Shown here piece by piece: positions 1 through 58,904 of a stretch of DNA of 64,000 bases. Both the position numbers and the translations under genes were made by a program. Within the stretch, counting starts at the first letter, position 1. Every line of letters starts with the position of its first letter. The notes under the pieces are model-generated. The model searched no databases, was not told the origin of the DNA, and saw only the letters and a list, made by a program, of their open reading frames with translations. Source of the DNA: Candidatus Magnetomicrobium cryptolimnococcus (GTDB lineage: Bacteria; Nitrospirota; Thermodesulfovibrionia; Thermodesulfovibrionales; Magnetobacteriaceae); NCBI GenBank assembly GCA_018606805.1, contig JAGYWI010000007.1, positions 1 through 64,000 on the forward strand. Direction: 5' to 3'.

Positions 1-2
1 TA

Positions 3-203
3 ACGTCAGATGGGCAGATTTATTATACATTAGACATGCAGACATGGACAAATATACCGGGAGCATTGAGCCAACTTGAAGCTACAGATGTAAACAAAGA
101 CGGTAAAACTGATATTATCGGATTAACAAGTACTGGTGAAATTTTCTACTCAGTAGATATGCAAAACTGGACAAGGATACCCGGAGCACTTTCACATTTT
201 TAA
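3..203 (+). CDS. FG-GAP-like repeat protein, 3' end only (cut by window start)
   Basis: Only the last 66 codons are in the window; the reading frame is open from the left edge to the TAA at 201-203. The residues (TSDGQIYYTLDMQ..., DVNKDGKTDIIG, NWTRIPGALSHF) match, almost base for base, the C-terminus of the complete gene at 2765-4531, and the similarity continues past both stop codons. It is therefore the end of a paralogous secreted beta-propeller-like protein with D-x-N-x-D-G-x-x-D calcium-type loops. The 3' similarity, including untranslated sequence, points to tandem duplication or gene conversion. Function is unknown; an extracellular binding role is inferred from the paralogue. Confidence 0.85.
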   Translation, partial: TSDGQIYYTLDMQTWTNIPGALSQLEATDVNKDGKTDIIGLTSTGEIFYSVDMQNWTRIPGALSHF

Positions 204-222
204 ATAATTAAATAATACTAAT

Positions 223-248
223 AAAAGGGGGGTAACATCTCCCCTTTT
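223..248. terminator. Bidirectional stem-loop terminator between convergent genes
   Basis: AAAAGGGG (223-230) pairs perfectly with CCCCTTTT (241-248) around a 10-base loop. It follows the FG-GAP gene stop on the plus strand and overlaps the end of the MNT gene on the minus strand, so it can serve both. The paralogous gene at 2765 has an equivalent hairpin in the same place. Confidence 0.6.
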
Positions 249-585
249 ACCCCAAATCTTCTAATTTTACTTCCTCTCCATGTTCCAAGGCATCTAATAT
301 AACAATTGATGATTCCTTTATTTTTTCAAATTCCATTACTGAATAACACAGTATATCTATGTGTTTTGGAAATCGTAATGTTTTTAAAACCAACGGCATC
401 CTTCTTATAAATTCTATATTTTTAAAGTAATCAGATACCATAATCACATCAATATCTGACTCCTCTTTAGCATTACCCGTTACTCTTGAACCAAATATTA
501 ATACCCTTATAGGGGTAAACTCGTTATATATTAACGGTAATGCCTTTTTTTTAAATTGTTCTATCCAAAAATCATAGTTCTTCAT
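247..585 (-). CDS. MNT-type minimal nucleotidyltransferase (antitoxin of HEPN/MNT pair)
   Basis: A 112-residue protein carrying the minimal-nucleotidyltransferase signature G-S-x10-D-x-D exactly (GSRVTG...SDIDV, about residues 32-46), with no other domain. In the MntA/HEPN family this enzyme adds AMP units to a tyrosine of its partner HEPN RNase and so silences it; that mechanism is family knowledge, not seen here. It overlaps the upstream HEPN gene (572-1036) by 14 nt, so the two are surely co-transcribed and probably translationally coupled. The pair sits between two paralogous surface-protein genes and is the likely cargo of a past insertion. Confidence 0.85.
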   Translation of the reverse strand: MKNYDFWIEQFKKKALPLIYNEFTPIRVLIFGSRVTGNAKEESDIDVIMVSDYFKNIEFIRRMPLVLKTLRFPKHIDILCYSVMEFEKIKESSIVILDALEHGEEVKLEDLG

Positions 586-1036
586 TATTTAAAGACCAAT
601 AGTTTATTTTAAGATAATCAAAAATCATTTTAGCCTTTTCAACTTTCTCTTTTGCTAACGCTTCGTTATACATTTCATATGGTATTTTATCACTAACATC
701 TGGATATCTTGAAAGAGTGTAGTCTATATCTAAATCAAATACTATATCAACTATTTGCTCAGGCAGATTTAACTCACTAGCTAATTCACCGAGATAGTGG
801 TTTTTGGATACCTTTTTCCCATTTAAAATAAAAATTGATTTAAGAATTTTTTCAATTGCTTGTTGAGATAAAAAGGCTGTAACATCATACCCTTCTATGG
901 CAAGATTTCTCTCTGCCATCAACAAATCATGTTCAGCTTGTTTAAGCCATTTTAAGGCAATTGCCCTATTCCTTGTAAGATAGTTACCGGCAAGTGATGC
1001 GCTTTTATCATCCCTTAGATTGTTCTTTTCAGTCAT
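572..1036 (-). CDS. HEPN domain protein (toxin of HEPN/MNT pair)
   Basis: This 154-residue protein has the HEPN-domain pattern: a helix with ALKWLKQAEHDLLMAERNL near residue 27, FLSQQAIEKILKS near residue 55, and a closing SRYPD motif near residue 109. HEPN proteins partnered with an MNT protein are usually RNases that inhibit growth when free. The canonical R-x4-6-H catalytic motif is not obvious; the protein looks like the PF05168 type ending in RYPD, so nuclease activity is uncertain. The ATG is preceded by GAAGGTAAG. It is the first gene of a two-gene minus-strand operon with the nucleotidyltransferase. Confidence 0.82.
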   Translation of the reverse strand: MTEKNNLRDDKSASLAGNYLTRNRAIALKWLKQAEHDLLMAERNLAIEGYDVTAFLSQQAIEKILKSIFILNGKKVSKNHYLGELASELNLPEQIVDIVFDLDIDYTLSRYPDVSDKIPYEMYNEALAKEKVEKAKMIFDYLKINYWSLNNEEL

Positions 1037-1125
1037 AATGCTTACCTTCTATTTTATAGTATATATATTGTATGAATTTTTTCAATGAATTTTTTGTTTT
1101 AGTTACCTTATAAAAGACTAATACC

Positions 1126-1345
1126 ATCTGGTTTTTGCTATATGTATGTGAAATAACATACATATAACATATGATAAATATCTCACATCAAAAACCCTCA
1201 GTTTAAAAGCCTTTTAGTAAATTAAATGTTACCTGATATGCTAAATTTAGCATAATAATATTATTAAGTTTTTTTAAACCTGCATTTTTATAACAAAAAC
1301 TTATGTTTTTAATAGGCATATATATTGCAGGTTAGCTGATCTTGG
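1126..1345 (+). promoter_or_regulatory. Conserved promoter module, copy 1 (two palindromes + sigma54-like -24/-12)
   Basis: Non-coding block nearly identical to 5176-5390 and recognisable at 7890-8110. In order: an 11-bp inverted repeat TATATGTATGT/ACATACATATA (1139-1149/1156-1166), the box TGATAAATATCTCACATCA (from about 1172), the perfect 18-bp palindrome TATGCTAAATTTAGCATA (1237-1254), and GGCATATATATTGC, whose GG (1315-1316) and GC (1327-1328) are 10 bases apart as in sigma54 -24/-12 promoters. Start of transcription would be near 1340, about 75 nt before the gene at 1416. The palindromes, 82 and 174 bp upstream of the -12 element, are where an enhancer-binding protein would be expected. 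The sigma54 assignment is inference. Confidence 0.65.
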
Positions 1346-1415
1346 TAGATGAATATATAATAACTGAAAATAAATATTATCAATCACCAATTATTATGCA
1401 AAAAGGAGGTCTGTA

Positions 1416-2009
1416 ATGAAAAGGAGTTTATTTATTTTAATGTTAATTGTAGTTTATATGTTATACTTGAGGACTCTTGTTGTAGCTGGAAGTGTTCCAT
1501 ATACATTTACAGCTGGTACTACAGCAAAATCTGCTGAAGTTAATGCCAATTTTGAATATGTAAATTATGGAAATATTATTGTTAAAGATGGCAATGGTAG
1601 TGAAATTGGAACTTTAATAGGTAGGGGCGAAAATGCTGTACCTGTATTTGATATTTTAAATTATAATGGATATATAGTGGGCGTTAGATGGGATAATGGG
1701 GAGATAAACCATGAAACACACACTTTATTAGATTTTAGTTATGAAGGCACTGATTGCTCTGGCACTGCTTACACATATGTAGAGAACCATCCACCTGGTA
1801 GCGTATTGAGACGTTCTAGTGGAGAATTATTTTATATTGATAAAAATGCTATCAAGAGTACAAAAATTATGGGAAGTTATTATTTAGATGGTGTATGTGG
1901 AACAGGAAGCTATAATTATGAATTCTACCAACTGACCCCAAACGATTCATCAGTAACAGGAATATCGTCTGCAAATTTTGCCACTCCAATAATAATAGAA
2001 CGGCGATAG
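1416..2009 (+). CDS. Secreted protein of unknown function
   Basis: A 197-residue protein starting after a strong AAAAAGGAGGT ribosome site. The N-terminus is a signal peptide (KR, then about 15 hydrophobic residues, LVVAGS). The mature start reads YTFTAGTTAKSAEVNANFEY, a motif I recognise from many bacterial secreted or fibre-like proteins in which an x-x-VNANF segment precedes the variable part. The rest is rich in G, Y, N and contains a few cysteines (C at about 121 and 160) that may form a disulphide. It lies downstream of promoter module copy 1 and 4 bp upstream of the next secreted-protein gene, so they form an operon. No enzymatic signature was seen. Confidence 0.75.
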   Translation: MKRSLFILMLIVVYMLYLRTLVVAGSVPYTFTAGTTAKSAEVNANFEYVNYGNIIVKDGNGSEIGTLIGRGENAVPVFDILNYNGYIVGVRWDNGEINHETHTLLDFSYEGTDCSGTAYTYVENHPPGSVLRRSSGELFYIDKNAIKSTKIMGSYYLDGVCGTGSYNYEFYQLTPNDSSVTGISSANFATPIIIERR

Positions 2010-2013
2010 CTGT

Positions 2014-2658
2014 ATGATTAGAATACTAACAATAATCACTTTACTATTTCTACCAGTATACTTATATGCAAATAATACAGTATGGGACTATAGCTTATGG
2101 GATAACATGCAGTGGGATACTACCCCAACGCCAACCTATACACTTACATTATTGAAATCAGGCAAAGGTAGTGGCACAGTACAAAGTAATCCAAGCGGGA
2201 TAAGCTGTGGTAGCACTTGCATCAACACTTTTAATGAGAACCAGCAGATTACGTTAAGTATGGAGGCAAGTTCTAATTCAAAGGCAATAGGATGGGATGG
2301 ATGTGATAGCGTAAACACAAGTAAAGTTTGTACGGTGGTAATGGATGAAAATAAAACAATAACAGCACGCATAGCGAACACTACTGACAAGATATTGCAG
2401 GTTACAAAGGTAGGAAAAGGTTCAGGCAGCGTAACTGTAACGCACGGAAGTTTATTATGGAGTGATAAGATAGGCACAACAAGTTATAAACAGGGCAAAG
2501 TAGTAACTCTTAAAGCATTAGCAGATACAGGTTCGCAATTTAAATCGTGGACAGGTTGTGATTCCACAAGTGGAAAGAAATGTACGGTTACAATGAGTAA
2601 GAAGAAAGACTTAACAGTAAAGTTTAAGTTAAAAAGTAGTACGGATGAGGGGCTTTAG
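2014..2658 (+). CDS. Secreted protein with two divergent InlB-type beta repeats
   Basis: A 214-residue protein with an N-terminal signal peptide (MIRILTIITLLFLPVYLYA). Two divergent InlB B-repeat modules (PF18998-like) follow: about residues 42-118 (YTLTLLKSGKGSGTV..., paired cysteines, GWDGC, CTVVMDENKTITARI) and 127-205 (VTKVGKGSGSV..., SWTGC, CTVTMSKKKDLTVKF). The whole C-terminal part is a clear paralogue of residues 560-729 of the protein at 5541-7730, after the same short TPTPT linker. It starts 4 bp after the preceding stop codon. An extracellular adhesion or structural role is inferred from domain type only. Confidence 0.82.
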   Translation: MIRILTIITLLFLPVYLYANNTVWDYSLWDNMQWDTTPTPTYTLTLLKSGKGSGTVQSNPSGISCGSTCINTFNENQQITLSMEASSNSKAIGWDGCDSVNTSKVCTVVMDENKTITARIANTTDKILQVTKVGKGSGSVTVTHGSLLWSDKIGTTSYKQGKVVTLKALADTGSQFKSWTGCDSTSGKKCTVTMSKKKDLTVKFKLKSSTDEGL

Positions 2659-2764
2659 CTTAAGCCCATACCATTTGGACTACGTGGTGGATTGCTGCAA
2701 CCCTAATAAATACACCACGATTTGACTTGAGACAGTTTGGTTTAAATGAAAAAAGGAGGTTTAT

Positions 2765-4531
2765 ATGCGTGCTGTTATGGCTAAAAAAGGTATATGTTTT
2801 CTATTAATGGTAGCATTATTTGTTTTTTCTTTAAGTGTTGAAGACAGCTGCGGTAGTGAATCTGATGATAGTAATGTATGGAGCTATAATAACAGCTATA
2901 ATAACAAGGATAAAGACAATACACTTGAGATTTACTACAAATTTAATGGTACTACGCCACAATATGCTGTCATTGATTTAGATGACAGTTATTTTCGTAT
3001 GGTATATAATACTAACTCAGGCGCTAACTCTGGTTGGGGTACATCTGTAATTCTATTCCCATCGTTTTGGACAAAAGGTATTTGTGATGATAATGATGAT
3101 GCTGATAACCTGTGTCAAGGGACACCAATAGAAATTAACACTATCACGATTGATGGAGATGAGCTTGTTATATCAATTACAGGTGAAATTGGCGGTTTGA
3201 GTGCACAAGGGCAGATTCGACTTTTACCGCCTCACTATAATTCTTTTTCTGTAATCGTGAACATGACTATTAATGGAGATGCTGATTTAGACACAAGCAA
3301 GATTGGTGAAATATTTAAACCTGTAAAATTGTCATCAATGCATATTTCGGCGGCTAATTGGGATGCACAGCTTGCATTTGCTGGCTCTAATACATTTGAA
3401 ATTCCACAAACAGAATGGCTTATTCAACCACAAGAGTATATAGTAGCGGAACGTTTTGGTTTAATAGGAGGAACATCCACTTGGAAAACAAATGCACCTA
3501 CAATAGAAATAACATTAAATCAACCATTACAAATAGCTGGATGGGTAACTGGCTCAGCTAATGCTAATGATGACAATGTCGGTTTATGGGCATCATCTAA
3601 CCAAATTCTTAGCTCTTGGCAGTATACGATAACCGTTAAACCACATTATTCTGTACCAAAACCAAATTTCGTAGGAGACTTAAACAGTGATGGTACAGAC
3701 GACATATTTGGCATAGATGGAGTTAAACAGCCTTGGTACACAACGAACTTCACAGACTGGAGCAGTATACCGGGTTATTTGGAAAAAGCAACTTTGTTGA
3801 CCCACGATGATAACGGCACAACATATATAGCTGGCATAGCAACTGACACAAGCGTTTGGCTTTCAACTGATAAATACAATTGGGAAAAGATAGATGGCAA
3901 TATAGTATCATTAACAAGAGGTGATGTAAACAATGATGGCGAGGAAGATTTAGTAGGACTTGATCAAAACGGTGGCATTTGGTATACAACTGACCTTGTA
4001 ATGTGGACTAACATACCTGGCTATCTCTTTGAAATAGTATTATTAGATATAAACGGTGATGAAAACATGGATATAGCTGGGATAGCCCCAAATGGTTCGT
4101 TATGGTATACAATAGACTTAAAAACATGGAACTGGATACCCGGTTATCTGTCAAATTTAAAGGCGGCTGATTTAAATAAGGATGGAAAAACAGATTTAGC
4201 AGGCATATCATCAGATGGTTCGTTATGGTATACAACAGACCTAATAAATTGGTCAAATGTCCCAGGCACATTGTCTCGATTGGTAATTGGAGATTTTAAT
4301 GGAGATGCTTACGATGACCTAGCAGGGTTGACATCAAGCGGGCAGATTTATTATACATTAGACATGCAGACATGGACAAATATACCGGGAGAATTGAGCC
4401 AACTTGAAGCTACAGATGTAAACAAAGACGGTAAAACTGATATTATCGGCTTAACAAGTACTGGTGAGATTTTCTATTCAGTAGATATGCAAAACTGGAC
4501 AAGGATACCCGGAGCACTTTCACATTTTTAA
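2765..4531 (+). CDS. Secreted FG-GAP/VCBS-like repeat (beta-propeller) protein
   Basis: A 588-residue protein; the ATG follows AAAAGGAGGT. A signal peptide (GICFLLMVALFVFSLSV) leads to an N-terminal beta-rich region of about 280 residues without a recognised family. Residues about 300-588 are roughly seven repeats of 38-42 residues, each with an acidic loop (GDLNSDGTDD, GDVNNDGEED, DLNKDGKTD, DVNKDGKTD) and a W-Y-T-T-D-L / W-x-x-I-P-G segment. This is the FG-GAP-like calcium-loop propeller pattern. The same repeats end the 1046-residue protein at 46835, and the last two are duplicated at the window start. Spacing from the upstream gene is 106 bp, so it may share the module-1 promoter or use its own. 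Likely extracellular; ligand unknown. Confidence 0.8.
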   Translation: MRAVMAKKGICFLLMVALFVFSLSVEDSCGSESDDSNVWSYNNSYNNKDKDNTLEIYYKFNGTTPQYAVIDLDDSYFRMVYNTNSGANSGWGTSVILFPSFWTKGICDDNDDADNLCQGTPIEINTITIDGDELVISITGEIGGLSAQGQIRLLPPHYNSFSVIVNMTINGDADLDTSKIGEIFKPVKLSSMHISAANWDAQLAFAGSNTFEIPQTEWLIQPQEYIVAERFGLIGGTSTWKTNAPTIEITLNQPLQIAGWVTGSANANDDNVGLWASSNQILSSWQYTITVKPHYSVPKPNFVGDLNSDGTDDIFGIDGVKQPWYTTNFTDWSSIPGYLEKATLLTHDDNGTTYIAGIATDTSVWLSTDKYNWEKIDGNIVSLTRGDVNNDGEEDLVGLDQNGGIWYTTDLVMWTNIPGYLFEIVLLDINGDENMDIAGIAPNGSLWYTIDLKTWNWIPGYLSNLKAADLNKDGKTDLAGISSDGSLWYTTDLINWSNVPGTLSRLVIGDFNGDAYDDLAGLTSSGQIYYTLDMQTWTNIPGELSQLEATDVNKDGKTDIIGLTSTGEIFYSVDMQNWTRIPGALSHF

Positions 4532-4550
4532 ATAATTAAATAATACTAAT

Positions 4551-4577
4551 AAAGGGGAGATGCAAATCTCCCTTTTT
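4551..4577 (+). terminator. Rho-independent terminator after FG-GAP gene
   Basis: GGGAGAT (4555-4561) pairs with ATCTCCC (4566-4572) around GCAA, extended by AAAG/TTTT pairing and followed by a T run to 4577. It lies 20 bp beyond the stop at 4531. Confidence 0.75.
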
Positions 4578-4760
4578 AATTTTCACCAGACTTTCGGTTC
4601 AAACCCTTCAGTGTTGATTATTTCTAAAATACTATCTCCAACAGACAGGACCATAAAGCCATTTTTTTCTGCATACTTAACTACGCTTTCATTGGCATGC
4701 AATGCTGCAAATATGCCAATAAGCGGTGTATCTTTATGCTCAGGATATATAATCTAAACC

Positions 4761-5022
4761 AATGTCATTAACTTAACGGATTCATCCTCTAACCATTGAG
4801 AGATTACTCGTTTTCAGCTTGCAATGATAGGCATTTAAAAATCCCCTTGAGTCATAATATAGCACATTTTGATTTGATAAGAACACTAAAACATAGGGCA
4901 GACACTCGAAAGGTCTGCCCCTACGGTACACGTGTTTTTGTAGGGGCGAACCTAGGGGCAAGCCCTTAAGTTTGTTATCTATTAAATCGAAATGTGCTAT
5001 AAACCCTTAAGTTAATGACATT
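4761..5022. repeat. Outer inverted-repeat element carrying a nested small element
   Basis: AATGTCATTAACTTAA (4761-4776) and its perfect reverse complement TTAAGTTAATGACATT (5007-5022) bracket 230 bp that include the small element 4858-5001. It lies exactly between the two fragments of the broken minus-strand gene, so it is the likely agent of disruption. Related 16-mers (AATGCCATTAAGTTAA) occur alone at 8160, 31733 (reverse) and 32655. No transposase is present, and no target duplication is obvious. Confidence 0.6.
4858..5001 (+). mobile_element. MITE-like element, copy 1
   Basis: A 144-bp element with terminal inverted repeats TATAGCACATTTTGATTTGA / TTAAATCGAAATGTGCTATA. The centre contains an internal hairpin (GGGCAGAC...GTCTGCCC) and GTAGGGGCGAACC. 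Copies are at 8241-8390, 21094-21249 (inverted) and a decayed one at 58770-58904. It encodes nothing and is interpreted as a non-autonomous miniature transposable element. Confidence 0.7.
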
Positions 5023-5175
5023 GAATCTGATAACATTTGCTCTAAGTCATAAACCTTGTCTACTATTGCGGACATTCCAACCTCCTTCCATATAACACTC
5101 CTATTTTAACAAAAATAGACACTGCTATCAACAATAAATAAAAAAAATAAATATTACCGGAGATTCTTTTTCCAA

Positions 5176-5390
5176 CTCTGGTTTTTGCTATATGTATGTG
5201 AAATAACATACATATACATATGATAAATATCTCACATCAAAAAGCCTTAGTTTAAAAGCCTTTTAGTAAATTAAATGTTACCTGATATGCTAAATTTAGC
5301 ATAAGATTATTGTTAAGTTTTTTAAAACCTGCATTTTTATAACAAAAACTTATGTTTTTAATAGGCATATATATTGCAATTAATAATTAT
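5176..5390 (+). promoter_or_regulatory. Conserved promoter module, copy 2
   Basis: Almost identical to copy 1 over about 200 bp. It has the inverted repeat at 5189-5199/5206-5216, the TATCTCACATCA box at 5228-5239, palindrome TATGCTAAATTTAGCATA at 5286-5303, and sigma54-like GG (5364-5365)-N10-GC (5376-5377). Spacing from the first palindrome centre to the -12 element is about 174 bp, and from the second about 82 bp, as in the other copies. A transcript would begin near 5389, giving a leader of about 150 nt before the gene at 5541, which contains a tiny ORF. Confidence 0.65.
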
Positions 5391-5461
5391 AAAAGGGATA
5401 GCATGTCTTTAGTACTAAAAAGCCAGATTATTGTAAAAAAAATTTTAGGAGGGGTATTGCT

Positions 5462-5506
5462 ATGTTTTATTTGTTAAAAACTAGGGGTCAAGGGGTAAAA
5501 AGATGA
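5462..5506 (+). CDS. Possible 14-residue leader peptide
   Basis: ATG at 5462 follows a strong TAGGAGGGG ribosome site (about 5446-5455) and reads MFYLLKTRGQGVKR before TGA at 5504-5506. It lies in the untranslated leader between promoter module copy 2 and the secreted protein at 5541, which has its own AAGGAGG site. Two good ribosome sites in one short leader are the only evidence. It could be a translated leader, a degraded gene start, or chance. Confidence 0.3.
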   Translation: MFYLLKTRGQGVKR

Positions 5507-5540
5507 TGAAATGTAAAAAACATGTAAGGAGGTTAAGTAA

Positions 5541-7730
5541 ATGAAAAAAATATGGTTTGTATTATTGGTTATCATATTAGGAGTCAGATTCAGTAGTTTT
5601 GTGTATGGTGAATCGGTTGCTGTTAGTAACACTACATTAGCTGGTTATACAATAGTAAATACTGGAGATGAATGGAAGTATTCACAGGAAGAACAACCAG
5701 GATGGACAGGAAGTGATTTCGATGATTCTCAATGGACAAGTGGAATTACTCCATTTGGAAATGCAACATATGCTCCATGTGTTGATGTTTATAATGCTCC
5801 AACATATTGGGCAGAAAATACCACACTTTATTTACGTAAAGAAATAAATATTTCTAAAGAAGATAACTTAAGTGTTTTTGTGGCAATCGATAATGATATT
5901 ACCATATACATTGATGGTCAACAGGTTTTTTCTACAACAAGTGAGGGGTGTGCTGAAAGATGGGAATATAACTTCTCAATTCCTTCTGTAAAAGTTGGGG
6001 CTCACATTATAGCTATTAAAATTGTAGACAGAGGGGTGGCTACAGGTTTTGATATGAAAATTGACACAAATTATAATCAAAATCAAAATAATACTATAAA
6101 CCTCCCAAGAACCGGACAGACAACCTGTTATAATGCAAGTGGCAGCGTAATTTCATGCGCTGGTACGGGTCAAGATGGTGATAATTTGGCCGGCATTGAG
6201 TGGCCATCTCCAAGGTTTACTGATAATGGAAATAGTACTATAACAGATAACCTCTCAGGGCTTATGTGGATGCAAGATGCATCTACGCCTACGGTAGATG
6301 GGTGCACAGGGGGTGAGATGACATGGGTAGGGGCTTTTAATTATGTAAGCTGTTTAAATACTGCGAATTTTGCTGGTTATTCTGATTGGCGGATTCCAAA
6401 TAGGGAAGAGCTTATAAGCATTACTGATAAAAGTAATTATAACCCAGCACTGCCTGTAGACCATCTTTTTAATTCAGTAAAAACCAGTCAATATTGGTCA
6501 TCTACCACGTATGCTTTCTCACACGATCCTGTTAATGCATGGATTGTAAGTATGAGTTCTGGTTGGGTAGATAGCTATACTAAAGGCGATTCTCACTTTT
6601 ATGTATGGCCAGTACGTCTTGGACAACAGGTACGTAAAAGTGGGCAAACTACGAGTTATCAATCAAATGATGATGGGGATTTGGAGGTAGGAGTGGAATG
6701 GCCAAATCCAAGATTTACTAATAATAGTGATGAAACCATAACAGATAATCTTACAGGGCTTATGTGGGCGCAAAATGCATCTACTCCTACAGTAAACTCA
6801 TGTGCAGGTGGGACGATGATATGGAGCTATGCCTTCGATTATATATCTTGTCTAAATGCCATAGCTTATCTTGGCTATAGTGATTGGCGGCTACCAAATA
6901 TAAACGAGCTTGGAAGCCTTGTAAATGCTGAAAGAGAGAATATTGCTTCGTGGCTAAATTCAGAGGGATTTAGTAGTGCAAACAGCGGTTGGTATTGGTC
7001 ATCCACAACACTTGCTCACGCTACTAATCATGCATGGTTTGTTAGCATGTATAGTGGTAGTATAAAAATGGACAGTAAGCTTAACAGTAACTATGTATTG
7101 CCAGTACGTCTTGGGGCTACTAATACTACTCCAACTCCTACTTCTACACCCACGCCAACCCCAACAATTACCCCGACTCCAACGCCAACGTCAACCCCAG
7201 TAACTTATACGCTTACCTTATTAAAGGAAGGAAGCGGAGGTGGTTCGATAAAAAGTGAGCCATCAGGAATAAACTGTGGTGGTACATGTAGTAGTACCTT
7301 TGAAAGTGGCCAGGATGTTGCATTAACTACAACGGCAGCCTCTAATGCAAAAATAATAGGCTGGGATGATTGTGATAGTGTAAGTGAGGCAAATGTGTGT
7401 TTTGTAAATATGGATAAGGATAAAACAATCACGGTACGTATATCAAAAAAGACTGACAAAATATTAAAAATTACAAAAAAAGGAAAAGGCTCAGGCACTG
7501 TAACAGCAGATAGCGGTACTTTACTGTGGACAGATAAGGTAGGTGTTACTAGTTATAAAGAGGGTAAGCAGGTAACCCTTACGGCAGTACCGGATAATGC
7601 GTCGAAGTTTGTATCGTGGACTAATTGTGATACTAAAAGTAAAAGCGGAAAGGTATGCGCTGTTACAATGAATAAAAGGAGAGAGTTAACGGTAAAGTTT
7701 AAACCAAATAGTAATGGAGATGTTGAATAA
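5541..7730 (+). CDS. Large secreted mosaic protein: sugar-binding-like + 2x DUF1566 + 2x InlB-type repeats
   Basis: A 729-residue protein with a signal peptide (IWFVLLVIILGVRFSSFVYG). Residues about 30-180 resemble a jelly-roll/galactose-binding-type module (GWTGSDFDDSQWTSG, LYLRKEINI, VGAHIIAIKIVD). Two DUF1566 (Lcl_C) domains follow, about 187-370 and 371-530, each with R-x-G-Q-T, NLSGLMW/NLTGLMW, YSDWRxPN, WSSTT and a closing PVRLG. A TPTPTPT linker (530-560) leads to two divergent InlB repeats (560-729), paralogous to the protein at 2014. It lies 150 bp downstream of promoter module copy 2. DUF1566 domains are usually found in surface-exposed proteins; the ligand is unknown. Confidence 0.85.
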   Translation: MKKIWFVLLVIILGVRFSSFVYGESVAVSNTTLAGYTIVNTGDEWKYSQEEQPGWTGSDFDDSQWTSGITPFGNATYAPCVDVYNAPTYWAENTTLYLRKEINISKEDNLSVFVAIDNDITIYIDGQQVFSTTSEGCAERWEYNFSIPSVKVGAHIIAIKIVDRGVATGFDMKIDTNYNQNQNNTINLPRTGQTTCYNASGSVISCAGTGQDGDNLAGIEWPSPRFTDNGNSTITDNLSGLMWMQDASTPTVDGCTGGEMTWVGAFNYVSCLNTANFAGYSDWRIPNREELISITDKSNYNPALPVDHLFNSVKTSQYWSSTTYAFSHDPVNAWIVSMSSGWVDSYTKGDSHFYVWPVRLGQQVRKSGQTTSYQSNDDGDLEVGVEWPNPRFTNNSDETITDNLTGLMWAQNASTPTVNSCAGGTMIWSYAFDYISCLNAIAYLGYSDWRLPNINELGSLVNAERENIASWLNSEGFSSANSGWYWSSTTLAHATNHAWFVSMYSGSIKMDSKLNSNYVLPVRLGATNTTPTPTSTPTPTPTITPTPTPTSTPVTYTLTLLKEGSGGGSIKSEPSGINCGGTCSSTFESGQDVALTTTAASNAKIIGWDDCDSVSEANVCFVNMDKDKTITVRISKKTDKILKITKKGKGSGTVTADSGTLLWTDKVGVTSYKEGKQVTLTAVPDNASKFVSWTNCDTKSKSGKVCAVTMNKRRELTVKFKPNSNGDVE

Positions 7731-7889
7731 CAATATTTTCTGGTAGTTCTATCCTTGTTTTATAGCTTAAAAGAGATAGACTCTTATATTTACAAAAAAA
7801 GTAAGGGCAGACCTGTGAGTCTGTCCTGTGCTTTTTGTCGTATGTACATTACAGTATTTTTTTGAATAAAAGAATATAAAATAAAAGAT

Positions 7890-8110
7890 TAATATAGTCT
7901 TGATTTATCATATATATGTGAGATAATTTACACATATATATGATAAATATCTCACATCAAATAACATATAATTAAAAACATCTTAGCAAAATTAATAACT
8001 ATGTAATATGCTAAATTTAGCATAAAATTATTTCTTGGTTTTACAAAATCATTTATTTTGTAATAAAAAACGGCTTAATTGAGTTAGGTATATATATTGC
8101 AACTCTACCC
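7890..8110 (+). promoter_or_regulatory. Conserved promoter module, copy 3 (orphan)
   Basis: Diverged in sequence, but every element is kept: a longer 15-bp inverted repeat (7906-7920/7931-7945), TGATAAATATCTCACATCAA (7941-7960), palindrome TATGCTAAATTTAGCATA (8007-8024), and GG (8087-8088)-N10-GC (8099-8100). Palindrome-to--12 distances (about 174 and 83 bp) match the other copies. Retention of sites and spacing amid drift suggests function. No gene starts nearby: downstream are AATGCCATTAAGTTAA and nested repeats, then the Sia-type operon at 8781. Either its gene was lost or it drives the Sia operon through a ~670-nt leader. Confidence 0.55.
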
Positions 8111-8192
8111 ATGATGTTCAAATACTAAACTGGAGGGATAAAGGGGGGATTAAACATACAATGCCATTAAGTTAAGAAAGATTGCACAAAAA

Positions 8193-8468
8193 ATCAATAC
8201 CGTTTGGCATAAATATTGCTTAAATAAAGTCTCACAAATTTATAGCACATTTCGATTTGATAAGGACACAAAGTGTAGATAATAACATAGGGCAGACACA
8301 TAGGTCTGCCCCTACAATATATGTATTTTTGTAGGGGCGACCCTAGGGGCAAGCCCTTAATTTTACATATTAAATTGAAATGCACTAATAACTCAAAATA
8401 AATGCACCGTGAAAGTGTTTTTAACTGTAACTATACCATCAGCATAATTAATGCCGAACGGTATTGAT
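8193..8468. repeat. Outer inverted-repeat element around MITE copy 2
   Basis: ATCAATACCGTTTGGCAT (8193-8210) and ATGCCGAACGGTATTGAT (8451-8468) are reverse complements with one mismatch. Between them lies the MITE-like element 8241-8390. This is a second case of the small element sitting inside a longer, unrelated inverted repeat. Confidence 0.5.
8241..8390 (+). mobile_element. MITE-like element, copy 2
   Basis: Begins TATAGCACATTTCGATTTGA and ends TTAAATTGAAATGCACTA, with the shared core (AGGGCAGACACATAGGTCTG and GTAGGGGCGACCCTA). It has the same orientation as copy 1; the right end is slightly decayed. Confidence 0.7.
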
Positions 8469-8471
8469 AAA

Positions 8472-8633
8472 AAATGTAGTAAAAGATAACAAGGAATAAC
8501 TAAAAAGATGACAGTCCAAAAATTTTAGGAAGTGCGTAGGCGCACTCCCGTAAGGTGCGTAGGCGCACTCCCGTAAAGGATGCGGGGTTTGGGAGTGCGC
8601 TAAGCGCCTTTTGCCTAAAAGGGTTTTCCCCCA
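8472..8633 (+). repeat. Composite hairpin repeat, long form, copy 1
   Basis: Runs from AAGATAACAAGGAATAACTA through CAAAAATTTTAGGAA, two tandem GTGCGTAGGCGCACTCCCGT units (each itself nearly palindromic), GCGGGGTTTGGGAGTGCGC and GCCTAAAAGGGTTTTCCCCC. The same arrangement is at 26701-26865 and, inverted, at 31559-31711. Short hairpin-only forms occur at 23956, 49987 and 59442. All lie between genes. Confidence 0.7.
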
Positions 8634-8780
8634 CCATCTTTTTCCTTAGCTTTCCTTTCAAAAAATGCTACGTGTTTTAAAAACCATTTTTATTTTGATA
8701 TATCTTGATTTTTATAGCAAACAAACCATAACATAAAATGTCAATGAAACGTTAGCTATAATAGGAGAACACTTAATAGC

Positions 8781-10685
8781 ATGAAACTCACAAGCAAGGT
8801 TACAATCATCCTTACCTCTGTAATGCTACTGTACTTGGCCATTGCACATCTAACACTACGCTCAATAATTATTCCAAACTTCACCTCTATAGAACACAAA
8901 GAGGCAATAAAAGACATAAATAGAGTCTTAGAAGCAATTCACAATGAAATCCACCATCTCGATAAAAGTCTTCGTGATTGGTCATCTTGGGATGATACTG
9001 TTAATTTTATAGAAAATATGGATAGAGAATATATTAAAGTAAATCTGGTAGATTCATCCTTTGAAACAAATGAAATCAACATAATGTATTTTTATAACAC
9101 TACAAAGCAATCAGTATGGGGGAAGTTTTACGATACGCATACTAAACAATCAGATAACAGGCAATTAAAAGACTTCCCTGCCACACTATCAAATAAAGAG
9201 CATCCCTTATTTCGCTATTTAGATGCTAATTATTTAACTAACAACAAAACACCTTTACGGGATATTTCTATAACTGGCCTTATGAAGACAGAAGAAGGGA
9301 TAATGTTAATTGCATCGAGGCCAATTATAAGTAGTAACTATGAAGGTCCAATTAAAGGTGCACTTGTTATGGGAAAAATACTTGCTAATGAACTTATTAA
9401 TGCAATAGCAAAACAAACAAAATTAGACATTGAAATTCGCAACGAGGCAGAATTTACACAAGGCGATAGGTCTATCATAAAAAAACTAACAAAAGAAAGT
9501 CCTTATTTTATCGAAGACATTGATAGCAATCAACTAAAGGTATATACGACCATGAAAGATATAAACAGTAAAACAGCCTTGATGATACAAGTAACTATAG
9601 CTACATATATAACAAGTGAAGGAAAGACAGCATTACATTTTGCACTTATGTCAATTGTGTCAACTGGATTAATAATATTAATCCTACTAATGTTATTCTT
9701 ACAAAGGGTAGTTATAGCTCCTATAACAAAATTAAAAAACCTTGTAATCTCTATACGACAAAGCGGGAATCTATCAAAACGCATAGATTTGCAATATAAA
9801 GATGAAATAGGTGTGCTTGCCTCAGAATTTAACCTAATGATAGATAAGATTGAAAGTAGTACTACAGCGCTTCAACATAAAAACGAAGACCTTATTAAAA
9901 CTCAAAATAGGCTAATAGTAGCAAATGCTCAAATAGTGGAAAGCATCAAATATGCCAGTAATATTCAAAAATCTGTACTTCCTACAAATAATACCATGAA
10001 AGAAAGTTTATCTGATTTTTTTATAATTTGGGAACCTAGAGACACTGTAGGAGGGGATATTTACTGGTATAAGAGGTGGGGATCAGGGTGTTTGTTAGCT
10101 GTTGCTGATTGCACAGGACATGGAGTGCCAGGGGCATTTATTACGTTACTATCAAGAGGTGCCTTGGATATAGCTATGATGACAGTTAATGAAGGCAACG
10201 CTGCTGAACTTATTATAAACATTCATAAAATAATTCAAGTAACCCTTGGACAAAATAAAGACGGGGGGCTTTCTGATGATGGCTTAGAGTTAGGGGTTTG
10301 TTATATACCGCATGACAAGAAGACACTTACATATTGTGGAGCAAGACTTTCACTTTTTTGTTATAATGGTGAAGAGGTACAGGAGATAAAAGGTAGTAAA
10401 AAGCCTATAGGTTATAAAGATATTCCTTATGATACAACATTTACAAATTATATAATAAATATCCCAAAAAGGATGACTTTTTATATGACAACCGATGGAT
10501 TAACTGAGCAAATTGGTGGCGAAAAAAAGATAGCCTTTGGGAAAAAACGTTTAATGGCATTAATAGCGCAGGGATGGTCATATCCAATGGACAGACAGAG
10601 AACTATTATTTATGATACTTTTACACAATATCAAGGCGCTGAGGAGCGCAGGGATGATGTTTTAGTTATAGGTTTTACTATATAA
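8781..10685 (+). CDS. SiaA-like membrane sensor PP2C/SpoIIE phosphatase (CHASE4-HAMP)
   Basis: A 634-residue membrane protein. A first membrane helix (residues 7-27) is followed by an extracytoplasmic CHASE4-type sensor (about 45-275; LRDWSSWDDT, WG, R.I), a second helix (about 286-308), a HAMP domain (about 308-360), a short coiled coil, and a SpoIIE/PP2C phosphatase domain (about 415-634). The metal-binding aspartates sit in VGGDIYWY, ADCTGHGVPGAF and RDDVLVIGF. In the known SiaABCD pathway the phosphatase dephosphorylates SiaC, opposing kinase SiaB. The two following genes are exactly SiaB- and SiaC-like, 24 and 8 bp apart, which supports this role. The extracellular signal is unknown. Confidence 0.85.
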   Translation: MKLTSKVTIILTSVMLLYLAIAHLTLRSIIIPNFTSIEHKEAIKDINRVLEAIHNEIHHLDKSLRDWSSWDDTVNFIENMDREYIKVNLVDSSFETNEINIMYFYNTTKQSVWGKFYDTHTKQSDNRQLKDFPATLSNKEHPLFRYLDANYLTNNKTPLRDISITGLMKTEEGIMLIASRPIISSNYEGPIKGALVMGKILANELINAIAKQTKLDIEIRNEAEFTQGDRSIIKKLTKESPYFIEDIDSNQLKVYTTMKDINSKTALMIQVTIATYITSEGKTALHFALMSIVSTGLIILILLMLFLQRVVIAPITKLKNLVISIRQSGNLSKRIDLQYKDEIGVLASEFNLMIDKIESSTTALQHKNEDLIKTQNRLIVANAQIVESIKYASNIQKSVLPTNNTMKESLSDFFIIWEPRDTVGGDIYWYKRWGSGCLLAVADCTGHGVPGAFITLLSRGALDIAMMTVNEGNAAELIINIHKIIQVTLGQNKDGGLSDDGLELGVCYIPHDKKTLTYCGARLSLFCYNGEEVQEIKGSKKPIGYKDIPYDTTFTNYIINIPKRMTFYMTTDGLTEQIGGEKKIAFGKKRLMALIAQGWSYPMDRQRTIIYDTFTQYQGAEERRDDVLVIGFTI

Positions 10686-10709
10686 AACTTAGGTTGGTAA
10701 ATACGATTT

Positions 10710-11267
10710 ATGCACTTAGAATATATGTTGGCACTTAGACAAACTATTGAAACACAAAAAATCTTTCTCTGTTATAGTGGATATATAACAGAAGAGATTA
10801 TTACCTGTATGGGTTGTGCCTTAAGGCATAAGTTTAGTGTTGATAATACAGATAAAAAGGTTGCTCGCTCGGTCTTTGCTGTTTTTATTGAACTAGCACA
10901 AAACGTAATGCGCTATTGTACACAAAGGGATATAGGCTGTCAAGGTGATGTGATTCTTGACTTTCGGTATGGTATTTTGATTGTGGGTAAAAACAATACA
11001 GACTGGGTTATTTCCTGTGCAAATGTGATAGAAACTGTTGATGTTGAAAAAATACGTCTTTCTTTAAATTATATAAAAGAGCTTGATAGACAAAACCTAA
11101 GGTTATTGCATAAAAAAGCACTTCGAGACGAGCCACACGAAAGTAGCAAAGGGGCAGGATTAGGTTTTATTGAAATTGCCATGCGAGCTACTAAAGGTAT
11201 CGCTTTTGAGTTTACTCATATTGACGATAAGCATTCTTATTTTACAATTGCTGTATATATAGGATAG
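10710..11267 (+). CDS. siaB: SiaB-family protein kinase (DUF6272)
   Basis: A 185-residue protein of the SiaB/DUF6272 family, a GHKL-fold kinase. Visible features are an N-box-like helix (VFIELAQNVMRYC, near residue 55) and a glycine-rich lid region (SKGAGLGFIEIA, near 147). SiaB phosphorylates the small protein SiaC on a threonine in the characterised pathway. It lies between the phosphatase gene (24 bp upstream) and the SiaC-like gene (8 bp downstream). No strong ribosome site is seen (TAGGTTGG), which may indicate coupled translation. Confidence 0.8.
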   Translation: MHLEYMLALRQTIETQKIFLCYSGYITEEIITCMGCALRHKFSVDNTDKKVARSVFAVFIELAQNVMRYCTQRDIGCQGDVILDFRYGILIVGKNNTDWVISCANVIETVDVEKIRLSLNYIKELDRQNLRLLHKKALRDEPHESSKGAGLGFIEIAMRATKGIAFEFTHIDDKHSYFTIAVYIG

Positions 11268-11275
11268 TACTTTAT

Positions 11276-11662
11276 ATGAAATCATTGAAGATAAACCGGA
11301 CTCAACGAACCCCAGAAATAGATTTTAATCTTGAGCTAAATACCTTTGTAATTAAAGGAGAATCATATCCGGAAGATGCCAGAAAATTTTATAAACCAAT
11401 TATTGAATTTTTAGAGGTACATTTGAATACTGTACAAAATGCCGATATAATCTTTGATTTTGAATTAACCTATTTCAATAGCAGCACTTCCAAGATTATA
11501 TCAAGATTATTTAATTTGTTAGAAAACAGTAAAGACAATAACGTCATAATCAACTGGCATTACTTAGAAGATGATGACTACATGAAGGAACTTGGAGAGG
11601 AATTAGCCGACGACTTAGCCTATGCCGTTTTTAATAATGTACCTAAGATATTCCCCTGTTAG
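11276..11662 (+). CDS. siaC: SiaC-family regulatory phosphoprotein (DUF1987)
   Basis: A 128-residue DUF1987 protein: RTPEIDF at the N-terminus, GESYPEDARKFYKPI at about 34, and the phospho-acceptor region FELTYFNSSTSK near residue 68. In the known system unphosphorylated SiaC activates a diguanylate cyclase (SiaD). No GGDEF gene follows here: the next gene is convergent. The output partner must be encoded elsewhere or be different. Confidence 0.85.
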   Translation: MKSLKINRTQRTPEIDFNLELNTFVIKGESYPEDARKFYKPIIEFLEVHLNTVQNADIIFDFELTYFNSSTSKIISRLFNLLENSKDNNVIINWHYLEDDDYMKELGEELADDLAYAVFNNVPKIFPC

Positions 11663-11726
11663 TAAGACCACCAATTTATACTTGAGCACTTAAGCATTTA
11701 AATTGCCATCAATTGAAATATGTCCA

Positions 11727-12917
11727 CTATTGTTGCTGATAAAGTAACTGTTTCTCTTTTATTGTTTTAAATATTGTCTCTGCTACTACTTGATGACCCA
11801 ATTCATTATAGTGGATAGTATCATCTTGTGTACGCTTAAGTTGACTTGCCTTATATTTTGAAAGTTCCTCTCTTAGCTCCAGTATACTAAAACCGTTAGC
11901 TTGCCCTAAGCCTTTTACCTTGCTATATATCTTGGTCAAATTTTGTGTTTCCTTATTTATATCGTTTTCATCTATCAATAATGGAGAAATTACTAATAAT
12001 ACAGGTATATTTTTTGAGTATGATGAGATTTTAGCAAAGCCACCAACTACACTTTTCCAAGACTTTGAGCTATCTTGATGTATTCTGTCCCAATAATTTT
12101 TCCCTAAACCGTAATACGGATGCGACGGATTTAAAGTACTTAATAAGCTAGAATGAATATCTAATCTACGAAGTACAAAATCAAGTAAATAAGAAGGTGG
12201 ATTTTTATGCTCTAAAAACCAAATAGCAGGTGTATATGATAACACCGGATCATTTAGACAATATTGTAATATAATCATATCCGGTTGGAATTTACCTACC
12301 TTAGTTTCAAGTAGATACGCTTCTTGGTCAGTAGTGTAACCATCTACGGCAAAATTTAAAACTTCTATTTGTTGTGCGTTAAATGCAGCTTTATTATTAT
12401 TTAATAGTGTTTCAAGAATTACCGTATAAGGAGCTTGTCCCATTAGCACCAACGGCAAGGCCGCAGATACAGAGTCCCCTAAGACCACAACTCTCAATGT
12501 CCCTTGCTGTTTTTCTATTGATACATCGTTTTTACGTATGATACCATTTTTTTCCGTTAAACGTACATCGCTTTCTCTTTTTATAATGTTATTTTTAACA
12601 AGTTTATTTAAAAATATATGTTTCTCCACATAATTATACGTCAAACTAGGAATATGCTCATAGATTAATTGCGAAAACGACGATTTTCGCCACGCATAAA
12701 TGGAATTCTCCTCCGAATTATTGCGCCATTGCTCTGTTATATTATTTTTCTCTAACATTGACACTGTTTCCATATTACCGTTACTGGGATCTGTCAATTG
12801 TCGTGATACTAATTCAAACATTCCCACTGGCAGTAATATAGCCATCAGTAAAGTTATAAGATTAAAAATTACTGTACTTAATTTATCAGCACTGTCTTTC
12901 TTATTTATAGTGTTCAT
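11727..12917 (-). CDS. Membrane-anchored SGNH/GDSL-fold hydrolase-like protein
   Basis: A 396-residue protein with one N-terminal membrane helix (LSTVIFNLITLLMAILLPVG) and a large extracytoplasmic part. The SGNH blocks are visible: VVLGDSVSAALP near residue 145 (block I serine), NFAVDG (block II), LQYCLNDP near 220 (block III Asn) and DTIHYNELGHQVVA near 366 (block V Asp-x-x-His). Such proteins are esterases or acyl-transferases acting on polysaccharides or lipids. The gene stands alone, convergent with the Sia operon. A second protein of this type is at 51360-52685. Confidence 0.75.
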   Translation of the reverse strand: MNTINKKDSADKLSTVIFNLITLLMAILLPVGMFELVSRQLTDPSNGNMETVSMLEKNNITEQWRNNSEENSIYAWRKSSFSQLIYEHIPSLTYNYVEKHIFLNKLVKNNIIKRESDVRLTEKNGIIRKNDVSIEKQQGTLRVVVLGDSVSAALPLVLMGQAPYTVILETLLNNNKAAFNAQQIEVLNFAVDGYTTDQEAYLLETKVGKFQPDMIILQYCLNDPVLSYTPAIWFLEHKNPPSYLLDFVLRRLDIHSSLLSTLNPSHPYYGLGKNYWDRIHQDSSKSWKSVVGGFAKISSYSKNIPVLLVISPLLIDENDINKETQNLTKIYSKVKGLGQANGFSILELREELSKYKASQLKRTQDDTIHYNELGHQVVAETIFKTIKEKQLLYQQQ

Positions 12918-13277
12918 CTAAATTTTATTCATTACTATATAAACCTCCACTCCCTTAATCCTCCAATCACGCTTTAAAACCTAAAAACAAAATATTTCCC
13001 ACCAACGCTCTCTACTACTTAATCTCCCTTCTACAATATTATTATACTCATTAATACAAAATAAAACAAACATGGTTTACAAAAAAAAAGAAAGCCAATG
13101 GGTATTCAACAATACAGAAACACACTTCTTATCTAATGAAGACCATTTGGGGAATACCATTCGGGTAGAAAATATAATAGACAGCACCATCATTTTTTAT
13201 AATGATAGGAAATCCAAAAATAGCAGAAATAATATTTTACAAACTAATTAGTGTTGGATATACATAATCTTGATTTA
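12918..13277. other. Intergenic region with nothing recognised
   Basis: This 360-bp AT-rich gap lies between the SGNH gene start and the end of the pyruvate-kinase-like gene. I see no coding frame, repeat-family copy or strong hairpin. The promoter of the SGNH gene should lie in its left part. Confidence 0.5.
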
Positions 13278-20970: not shown

Positions 20971-21372
20971 GTATAATACTTGTAATTATCTTCTTTGTAC
21001 TACTTTCCACACCATTTCATATTTGAACGCCAACTTTTAATTGCGACACCGCCTCATTGCGAGGAGCGTAAGCAACAAGGCAAGCCCGTCTTTTATAGAG
21101 CGTTCGATTTAATAGGTAACAAAAATTAATGGCTTACCCATAGGTTCGCCCCTACAAAAAGACGGGTATCGTAGGGGGCAGACCTTTCGAGTGTCTGCCC
21201 TATTTTATTATCTACACTTTGTGTCCTTATCAAGTCGAAATGTGCTATAACAGAGAGATTGCAGGGAGGTGCGCCTCCGCACCTTCGCTACGCTCGCAAT
21301 GACAGACGTGTATAGATATTATGACCACTACCCATTCATGACTACCTTTTACATATAGGCACAACAACTTTA
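20971..21372. repeat. Intergenic repeat block with outer CATTGCGAG ends
   Basis: CATTGCGAGGAGCG (from 21055) and CTCGCAATG (21293-21301) are inverted ends around the MITE-like element 21094-21249 and a GGTGCGCCTCCGCACC hairpin (21269-21284). This is the third example in the window of the small element nested in a longer inverted-repeat unit. The left 85 bp hold the upstream region of the ParA gene. Confidence 0.55.
21094..21249 (-). mobile_element. MITE-like element, copy 3 (inverted)
   Basis: Reverse orientation: its right end CAAGTCGAAATGTGCTATA (to 21249) is the complement of the left end of copies 1 and 2, including the adjoining GTGTCCTTAT. The core (GGGGCAGACCTTTCGAGTGT and TAGGTTCGCCCCTAC) is also inverted. 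The other end (TATAGAGCGTTCGATTTAAT) is slightly decayed. Confidence 0.7.
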
Positions 21373-26700: not shown

Positions 26701-26865
26701 AAAAATGTTTGCAAAGATAATTAGGAATAACTAAATAAATTACAAGGCAAAAGTTTTAGGAAGTACGTAGGCGCACTCCCGTAAGGTGCGTAGGCGCACT
26801 CCCGTAAGGGTGCGGGGTTTGGGAGTGCGCCTACGCGCCTTTTGCCTAAAAGGATTTTCCCCCGC
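26701..26865 (+). repeat. Composite hairpin repeat, long form, copy 2
   Basis: Same order as copy 1: AGGAATAACTAAATAAAT, CAAAAGTTTTAGGAA, two GTAGGCGCACTCCCGTAAGG units, GCGGGGTTTGGGAGTGCGCC, and GCCTAAAAGGATTTTCCCCC. It fills the gap between the glgP start and the aspS stop at 26874, so it lies at the 3' end of aspS and could end that transcript. Confidence 0.7.
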
Positions 26866-26873
26866 TATCTTTT

Positions 26874-31382: not shown

Positions 31383-31967
31383 GATTATCCTCCCTTATGT
31401 GTTTTCAAAGCTGCTCCTTCAAGATAAAGGAGCAAGTCTTGGTTTTGTCTAGGGCAAAGCCCTATTAATTCTATAATATTTCTTTTAATATTGCAAGTTA
31501 TCCAAGATACAAGGCAATTTTTATTTTACAAATGCCATGCAGTTAAGGAAATAGAAGAGCGGGGGAAAACCCTTTTAGATAAAAGGGGTAGGCGCACTAC
31601 CAAACCCCGCACCCCTTACGGGAGTGCGCCTACGCACCTTATGGGAGTGCGCCTACGCACTTCCTAAAACTGTTGGCTTGTTATCTCTTTAGTTATCCTT
31701 GCTACGTTTGCTATAGTCTAACTCCATTTTTCTTAACTTAATGGCATTAACCTCAACTTAATAGCGTTAGGATAATGGTATTAAGTTTTTATTTTAATTT
31801 TTGTTGCTTTTTTATTTAATATATAGTAAAATCTCTATAGAATGGCTGTTGTTTAATCTATTATCGATATTATCTAATAACTTTCGGTGCTTTTATAGTA
31901 TTATTTATTTTTTCATAAGTGTAAACCTTTATTTTAATTGTTTTATCTTTAATTATGCGAGGGGAGC
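31383..31967. other. Long intergenic region with repeats
   Basis: 585 bp. It holds the upstream region of the lipoprotein gene (with a GCTCCTT/AAGGAGC hairpin near 31410-31432), the inverted composite repeat 31559-31711, and AATGCCATT-type motifs at 31733-31748 (TTAACTTAATGGCATT), partly repeated at about 31754 and 31774. The right 150 bp are very T-rich and probably contain the promoter of the gene at 31968. No coding frame is supported. Confidence 0.6.
31559..31711 (-). repeat. Composite hairpin repeat, long form, copy 3 (inverted)
   Basis: Inverse of copies 1 and 2: GGGGGAAAACCCTTTT, GGTAGGCGCAC, CAAACCCCGCA, two GGGAGTGCGCCTACGCAC units, TTCCTAAAACTGTTGG and TTAGTTATCCTTGCTACG. Confidence 0.7.
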
Positions 31968-58646: not shown

Positions 58647-58769
58647 TTTTTGTTTTCAAGTAAATTAACTCAGTTGTGGGGGAGAACACATTATACGAAA
58701 AGGGGTGCGGAAACGCACTCCTATTTCCCCTAAAAGTCCATTTCAGTAGAGCCTTCATCAAATCTATTA

Positions 58770-58904
58770 AGCATTTTAATTTGATAATGACACATAAAAT
58801 AGGGCAGACACATAGGTCTGCCCCTACGATGTACGTATTTTTGTAGGGGCGAACCTATGTGTTCGCCCTTAATTTGAGTTGAACTATCACACAAATTAAA
58901 TGCT
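58770..58904 (+). mobile_element. MITE-like element, copy 4 (decayed)
   Basis: AGCATTTTAATTTG (58770-58783) is the approximate inverse of CAAATTAAATGCT (58892-58904). The core AGGGCAGACACATAGGTCTG and GTAGGGGCGAACC is the same as in copies 1-3. It lies just outside the DUF29 gene stop, which falls within the right end. Confidence 0.6.

Follow-up and report, generated by a model that had tools for sequence, protein, structure and literature searches.

Putative promoter modules in the window and in the genome

The window analysed here is the first 64,000 nucleotides (1-64000) of contig C80 from Candidatus Magnetomicrobium cryptolimnococcus, whose genome comprises 3.59 Mb in 91 contigs. Close to its start lie three copies of a module of ~215 bp. 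The sequence evidence suggests that these modules are probably sigma54-dependent promoters of one lineage-specific regulon for secreted surface proteins, most likely run by EBP1, an enhancer-binding protein (EBP) encoded on contig C50. The copies in the window are as follows.

1116-1329, plus strand: module w1, complete (profile 153 bits; alignment)
5170-5379, plus strand: module w2, a recent duplicate of w1 (profile 153 bits)
7887-8102, plus strand: module w3, diverged (profile 129 bits)

The initial annotation had described three non-coding blocks with a common order of signals, and all were found where it had placed them. Its description of the module as triplicated held for the window, but three more copies occur elsewhere, giving exactly six in the assembly (two on C50, termed C50a and C50b, and one on C87). 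The six blocks were combined into a profile, which was run against the whole genome. The modules scored 129-153 bits and the next match, in coding DNA, 15 bits. Two weak matches (C87:117372 and C25:334834, E 0.04-0.14) were dropped, as they fell within coding sequence. All six modules are intergenic, and five of them point toward a nearby gene. The three additional copies made a real test of conservation possible. Within the window, w1 and w2 are the products of a recent duplication and were counted as one piece of evidence because they are 96.6% identical over 203 bp. The sequence ATAAATATCTCACATCAAA is unchanged across w1, w2 and w3. An Rfam scan of positions 1-13000 of the window gave no match.

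The sigma54-type element and the conserved palindrome

Each copy in the window carries an element of the form TAGG(C/T)ATATATATTGCA, from which an rpoN-dependent transcript would be expected to begin ~12 nt past the GC.

1313-1329, plus strand: -24/-12 element TAGGCATATATATTGCA of w1, predicted start ~1340 (sequence pattern)
5362-5378, plus strand: -24/-12 element of w2, predicted start ~5389 (sequence pattern)
8085-8101, plus strand: -24/-12 element TAGGTATATATATTGCA of w3, predicted start ~8112 (sequence pattern)

The GG-N10-GC core with TGGCAY/TTGCW surroundings, as expected of a sigma54 promoter, was found in all six modules. A strict sigma54 pattern, WGGCAYRNNNNTTGCA, was searched on both strands of the whole genome with the reversed pattern as control. 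This yielded 12 sites versus two for the control, and five of the 12 were inside modules; the w3 element (GGTAT) narrowly missed the pattern. The remaining strict sites genome-wide had no matching palindrome upstream. In line with the sigma54 reading of the initial annotation, one rpoN gene is present (single Sigma54_DBD match, C51:170338, E 3e-59). A site for integration host factor between the palindrome and the -24 region was considered, and by eye only w1 and w2 came near the consensus, so we do not claim it. Another strict sigma54-like site, TGGCATAAATATTGCT, occurs at 8205-8220, 119 bp downstream of the w3 element and before an interspersed repeat and siaABC-like genes.

Upstream of the element is an 18-bp palindrome (palindrome 2), which is exact in all three window copies.

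1237-1254, no strand: palindrome 2, TATGCTAAATTTAGCATA, of w1, presumed activator site (upstream activating sequence, UAS) (palindrome search, shuffles, column conservation)
5286-5303, no strand: palindrome 2 of w2 (palindrome search, shuffles)
8007-8024, no strand: palindrome 2 of w3 (palindrome search, shuffles)

When the window was shuffled 100 times, no shuffle contained three matches, even at a tolerance of 3 mismatches. In the whole genome the palindrome occurs five times exactly and once with one mismatch, the copies outside the window being at C50 10808, C50 12197 and C87 500 (minus strand). The random scatter that the initial annotation had named as evidence against its proposal was not seen, since all six (at most one mismatch) are intergenic and each lies upstream of a -24/-12 element. 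Matches with two mismatches on C9 and C72 are unrelated, one type at a gene start and the other within a gene, and come without a module. The distance from the centre of palindrome 2 to that of the -12 GC was 82, 82 and 84 bp in w1, w2 and w3, close to the ~82-83 bp first reported, and 82-85 bp in the full set of six; from palindrome end to GG start it was 60-63 bp throughout. A conserved upstream dyad at a steady distance, the mark of a UAS, was found in palindrome 2 in six of six modules. In Desulfovibrio vulgaris, the UAS are palindromic, and for most sigma54 promoters the nearest EBP site is no more than 100 nt away (PMC4641369). The spacing measured here fits that range, supporting a UAS role for palindrome 2.

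Conservation among the five diverged copies was concentrated in these two blocks. Invariant columns amounted to 17/18 in palindrome 2 and 14/17 in the -24/-12 element versus 51/188 in the rest of the module, and none of 20000 column shuffles reached the conservation run of the two blocks. In pairwise comparisons, palindrome 2 matched at 17-18 of 18 positions and the element at 15-17 of 17, whereas the sequence outside both was ~58-66% identical. The module might nevertheless be a passively duplicated repeat without regulatory function, spread by recent cluster expansion, with the conserved blocks as leftovers. The near identity of w1 and w2 would fit this explanation, as would the tandem arrangement of two modules with activator genes on C50, the position of w3 without an adjoining gene and the abundance of interspersed repeats in the area. 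However, drift outside the blocks has gone far while the blocks themselves stayed almost invariant, and every copy is intergenic, with 5/6 facing a nearby gene. These features make a functionless repeat highly improbable.

Upstream half-sites

A second palindrome (palindrome 1), ~174 bp from the -12 GC and with arms that change in a compensating way, had also been proposed in the initial annotation. In the window it is perfect, with arms of 11 bp in w1 and w2 and 18 bp in w3, and the distance was confirmed (175, 174 and 174 bp in w1, w2 and w3). Its conservation did not extend to the other copies, and a compensating change of arms was not borne out as a rule. C50a has a weaker dyad with 8-bp arms, shifted 3 bp from this position; the only strong dyad in C50b is ~22 bp farther downstream; and C87 has no dyad with arms of at least 7 in the region. 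What is kept in all six instead is a pair of half-sites, T.TGA.ATAA and the inverted TA.AT.TCTCA.AT, 30-34 bp apart. The left one lies ~175-178 bp and the right one ~144-147 bp from the -12 GC.

1147-1156, plus strand: left half-site TGTGAAATAA of w1 (T.TGA.ATAA kept in 6/6)
1175-1188, minus strand: right half-site TAAATATCTCACAT (inverted) of w1 (kept in 6/6)
5197-5206, plus strand: left half-site of w2 (six-copy comparison)
5224-5237, minus strand: right half-site of w2 (six-copy comparison)
7917-7926, plus strand: left half-site of w3 (six-copy comparison)
7944-7957, minus strand: right half-site of w3 (six-copy comparison)
7903-7948, no strand: 18-bp-armed inverted repeat (palindrome 1) of w3, not kept in all six (six-copy dyad comparison)

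The half-sites may bind the same activator more weakly or serve another regulator, and an activator using two upstream sites is possible. A dual-input promoter, in which the half-sites (TRTGARATAW ... TATCTCAYA) bind another global regulator, e.g. of the CRP/FNR type, would be compatible with the sigma54 regulon. Their retention and nearly constant separation in six copies agree with this, and the left site of C50a reads TGTGA-N6-TCACA, which is CRP-family-like. The other copies have not retained that layout, however, and the half-sites look like the arms of palindrome 2 (TATGNNAAAT), a likeness in keeping with binding by the same activator. We regard dual input as a conceivable but rather improbable arrangement.

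Activator genes adjoining the modules

The C50 locus begins with genes for a surface-type beta-propeller protein and a DUF4410 protein, followed by one for a paralogue of the protein encoded at 2765-4531 in the window; next come a hybrid histidine kinase, EBP1, a module, EBP2, a second module and a lipoprotein gene. The kinase has 7TMR-DISMED2 and 7TMR-DISM sensor parts. EBP1 consists of a receiver, a sigma54-interaction AAA+ domain and a Fis-type helix-turn-helix (HTH); EBP2 has the AAA+ and HTH domains without a receiver. Modules C50a and C50b begin directly at the stop codons of EBP1 and EBP2, respectively, so that each gene adjoins a module, as the initial annotation had anticipated for a sigma54 activator with a matching site near its own gene. 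The Walker A motif (GETGTGKS) and GAFTGA are intact in both proteins, so that NtrC-family genes that look competent for activation stand beside two modules. EBP1/C50a and EBP2/C50b form a tandem duplication, the two proteins sharing 217 of their last 281 residues (77% identity). Their ratio of nonsynonymous to synonymous divergence (dN/dS) of 0.13 shows that they diverged under purifying selection. EBP2 looks like a functional receiver-less gene rather than a decayed one because the motifs are kept and dN/dS is low.

The closest full-length relative of EBP1 in the PDB is 4l4u (also 1ny5; 299 bits), an NtrC-family regulator that we take to be NtrC1 of Aquifex aeolicus. The two share the receiver, AAA+ and Fis-type domains; the function in the source organism differs. 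NtrC1 without its receiver is reportedly constitutively active. Two minor features were seen near the activator genes and modules. Sequence akin to a second repeat family, with GTGCGTAGGCGCACTCCCGTAAGG units, apparently sits on C50 where the receiver-coding part of EBP2 would be expected. A short open reading frame starting MSL(V/L)LK follows both w2 (5403-5474) and C50a (locus L013, ~10930); it could encode a leader peptide common to both or be what is left of a gene start.

The modules might be sigma54 promoters at which a different regulator, either another EBP or a repressor, binds palindrome 2, with EBP1 and EBP2 acting elsewhere. About eight further NtrC-type proteins were detected in the genome, and perfect 18-bp palindromes are also typical of one-component dimeric repressors, so the site would fit these too. 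Yet EBP1 and EBP2 are the only EBP genes that adjoin any palindrome copy, with a module directly after each, and 3'-end remnants of an EBP gene accompany w1 and w3. A different regulator thus seems unlikely.

These remnants lie at the upstream edges of the two modules.

1104-1121, plus strand: EBP gene 3'-end remnant at the w1 edge, ..YLIKD* (EBP1 ..YKIKD*; 15/18 nt identical to EBP1)
7857-7892, plus strand: EBP gene 3'-end remnant at the w3 edge, ..IKEYKIKD* (EBP1 ..LKEYKIKD*; 29-30/36 nt identical to EBP1/EBP2)

None of 5000 shuffles matched the identity of either remnant. When the last 40 residues of EBP1 served as a protein query, both were missed, and the case is made by nucleotide comparison at a fixed position. 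Thus, w1 and w3 seem to carry the last codons of an otherwise lost activator gene. Because they open with such a remnant, the promoter appears to have spread together with its activator gene. The simplest reading would be that block duplication copied the activator gene along with the promoter behind it, and that the activators were later lost (w1, w3) or truncated (EBP2). Alternatively, the repeat unit just includes the activator 3' end, which ties promoter and activator equally closely. The propeller protein that begins at the end of C87 is similar to the C-terminal portion encoded where C50 starts. This suggests that the two contigs join at the propeller gene.

Genes behind the modules

The genes following w1, w2 and w3 in the window are listed below.

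1416-2009, plus strand: 197-aa protein with an N-terminal signal-like segment, first gene after w1 (no Pfam match)
2014-2658, plus strand: 214-aa secreted protein with an InlB B-repeat-like domain (Flg_new_2), w1 gene run (domain search)
2765-4531, plus strand: 588-aa secreted FG-GAP protein, w1 gene run (domain search)
5541-7730, plus strand: 729-aa secreted protein with two Lcl_C domains and InlB B-repeat-like domains, gene after w2 (domain search)
8781-11662, plus strand: siaABC-like genes (CHASE4-HAMP-SpoIIE phosphatase, SiaB-family kinase, SiaC) (domain/family search)

The surface-protein regulon of the initial annotation held in that the proteins behind the modules are mostly secreted, and failed for w3, which has no surface-protein gene directly behind it. 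By eye, signal-peptide-like or lipoprotein N-termini are present in the first genes after w1 (1416), w2 (5541), C50b (12486) and C87; C50a leads into EBP2. The target gene runs encode InlB B-repeats, FG-GAP, Lcl_C and propeller-like repeats. A terminator-like hairpin (4551-4576) follows the 2765-4531 gene. The protein encoded by this gene shares 74% identity over its N-terminal part with its C50 paralogue, and that part had no homologue among 20 relatives. The siaABC-like genes are a possible, unproven target of w3. Their SiaB_fam_kinase match (167.5 versus a cut-off of 85) holds at the family level only, the SiaA, SiaB and SiaC equivalogs being below cut-off. The set resembles a biofilm-control pathway, and no adjoining siaD was seen.

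Proposed mechanism and comparison with known systems

In the favoured mechanism, RNA polymerase-sigma54 would form a closed complex at GGCATATATATTGC. The neighbouring 7TMR-DISM hybrid kinase would phosphorylate EBP1, the most likely activator, which would recognise palindrome 2 at its position 82-85 bp ahead of the -12 GC. Bound EBP1 would then loop the DNA and use its AAA+ ATPase for promoter opening. Farther upstream, ~145 and 176 bp from the -12 GC, the two half-sites probably provide additional, weaker binding for this activator or for a second regulator. The targets would be secreted surface proteins together with EBP2, whose production would give positive feedback. The set may have grown through duplicated blocks of activator gene plus promoter, leaving activator 3' ends before w1 and w3. 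A further step, which we consider doubtful, is that EBP1 switches on EBP2, which lost its receiver and is perhaps constitutively active, and that EBP2 keeps the modules on; a transient signal would then latch the surface set, possibly with cell-to-cell variation.

Several observations weigh against this interpretation. All six modules may belong to one gene cluster, in which case shared ancestry explains part of their similarity. The w3 module has no gene directly behind it, the siaABC-like genes lying 680 bp on, past two interspersed repeats. Other NtrC-type proteins are present, a genome search with EBP1 giving 10 matches (E up to 1e-60), so EBP1 and EBP2 were assigned by adjacency and by the remnants. 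Finally, the module is confined to one genome among those searched, so that its conservation was compared between copies within that genome. The palindrome with GG-N10-GC was absent from 395 other genomes of the phylum; the minimum gap in this pattern was slightly too long for w1 and w2 and no mismatch was allowed, making it a specificity test only. Nothing beyond own-genome copies and noise was obtained with the palindrome at one mismatch in 60 relatives, or with the module profile in 18 genomes of the family. EBP1 relatives in the genome collection belong to Nitrospirota/Thermodesulfovibrionales. The nearest, in sister genus g3, are 52% identical and stand in a different context, where no module was seen. 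At two g3 loci (L070 5329-9640 and L069 5199-9531), the EBP1 relative accompanies a different hybrid kinase and an ABC-type substrate-binding protein.

The type of switch is well known in bacteria, and it is the regulon itself that is new; palindrome TATGCTAAATTTAGCATA was not found in the literature searched. Sigma54 is widely associated with control of the cell exterior (PMC3162934). The regulons of sigma54 and bacterial EBPs in D. vulgaris are similar in their palindromic UAS, many cell-exterior targets and a proposed autoregulated EBP (PMC4641369). They differ in binding motif, and here the promoter block is duplicated within one genome and has a receiver-less activator among its targets. 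The closest parallel in function is PrsK-PrsR with RpoN, which controls PEP-CTERM surface proteins, e.g. pepA of Aquincola tertiaricarbonis (PMC9850573). Both systems combine a histidine kinase, an NtrC-family regulator, a -24/-12 element with a predicted upstream enhancer and exported surface targets, those of PrsK-PrsR being aggregation-related. In contrast, EBP1 scored 348 bits against the PrsR model (TIGR02915, cut-off 502.6), and the C50 kinase, a 7TMR-DISM hybrid, scored 85 bits against PrsK (TIGR02916, cut-off 300). A non-systematic look at the targets revealed no PEP-CTERM signal. The GlrR-type enterobacterial site, TGTC-N10-GACA, has the same layout as TATG-N10-CATA, with inverted 4-bp arms 10 bp apart, but arm sequence and target genes differ.

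An uncultured lineage with relatives in Nitrospirota would thereby gain a testable regulon, with kinase, activator, binding site, promoter and targets named from sequence alone. The modules may also exemplify a promoter and activator gene spreading jointly by duplication, with activator 3' pieces before new targets. A receiver-less activator copy under the same promoter type is a layout suited to positive feedback.

Neighbouring genes and repeats

Divergent from w1, at 247-1036 on the minus strand, are MNT-like nucleotidyltransferase and HEPN genes, likely a toxin-antitoxin pair. Divergent from the C87 module (locus L014, 722-6139) are glycosyltransferase, N-acyltransferase-like, AMP-ligase-like and LuxE/LuxC-like genes in a run, which may form a cluster for modifying polysaccharides or lipids. 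Repeats of ~140 bp with inner inverted repeats (gggcagac...gtctgccc), ~76-85% identical, occur at 4858-4994, 8241-8382, 21103-21250 and 58759-58875 and at L014 10189-10318, and possibly resemble miniature inverted-repeat transposable elements. The second interspersed family, with the GTGCGTAGGCGCACTCCCGTAAGG units noted at EBP2, was found at 8470-8651, 26701-26874 and 31541-31713.

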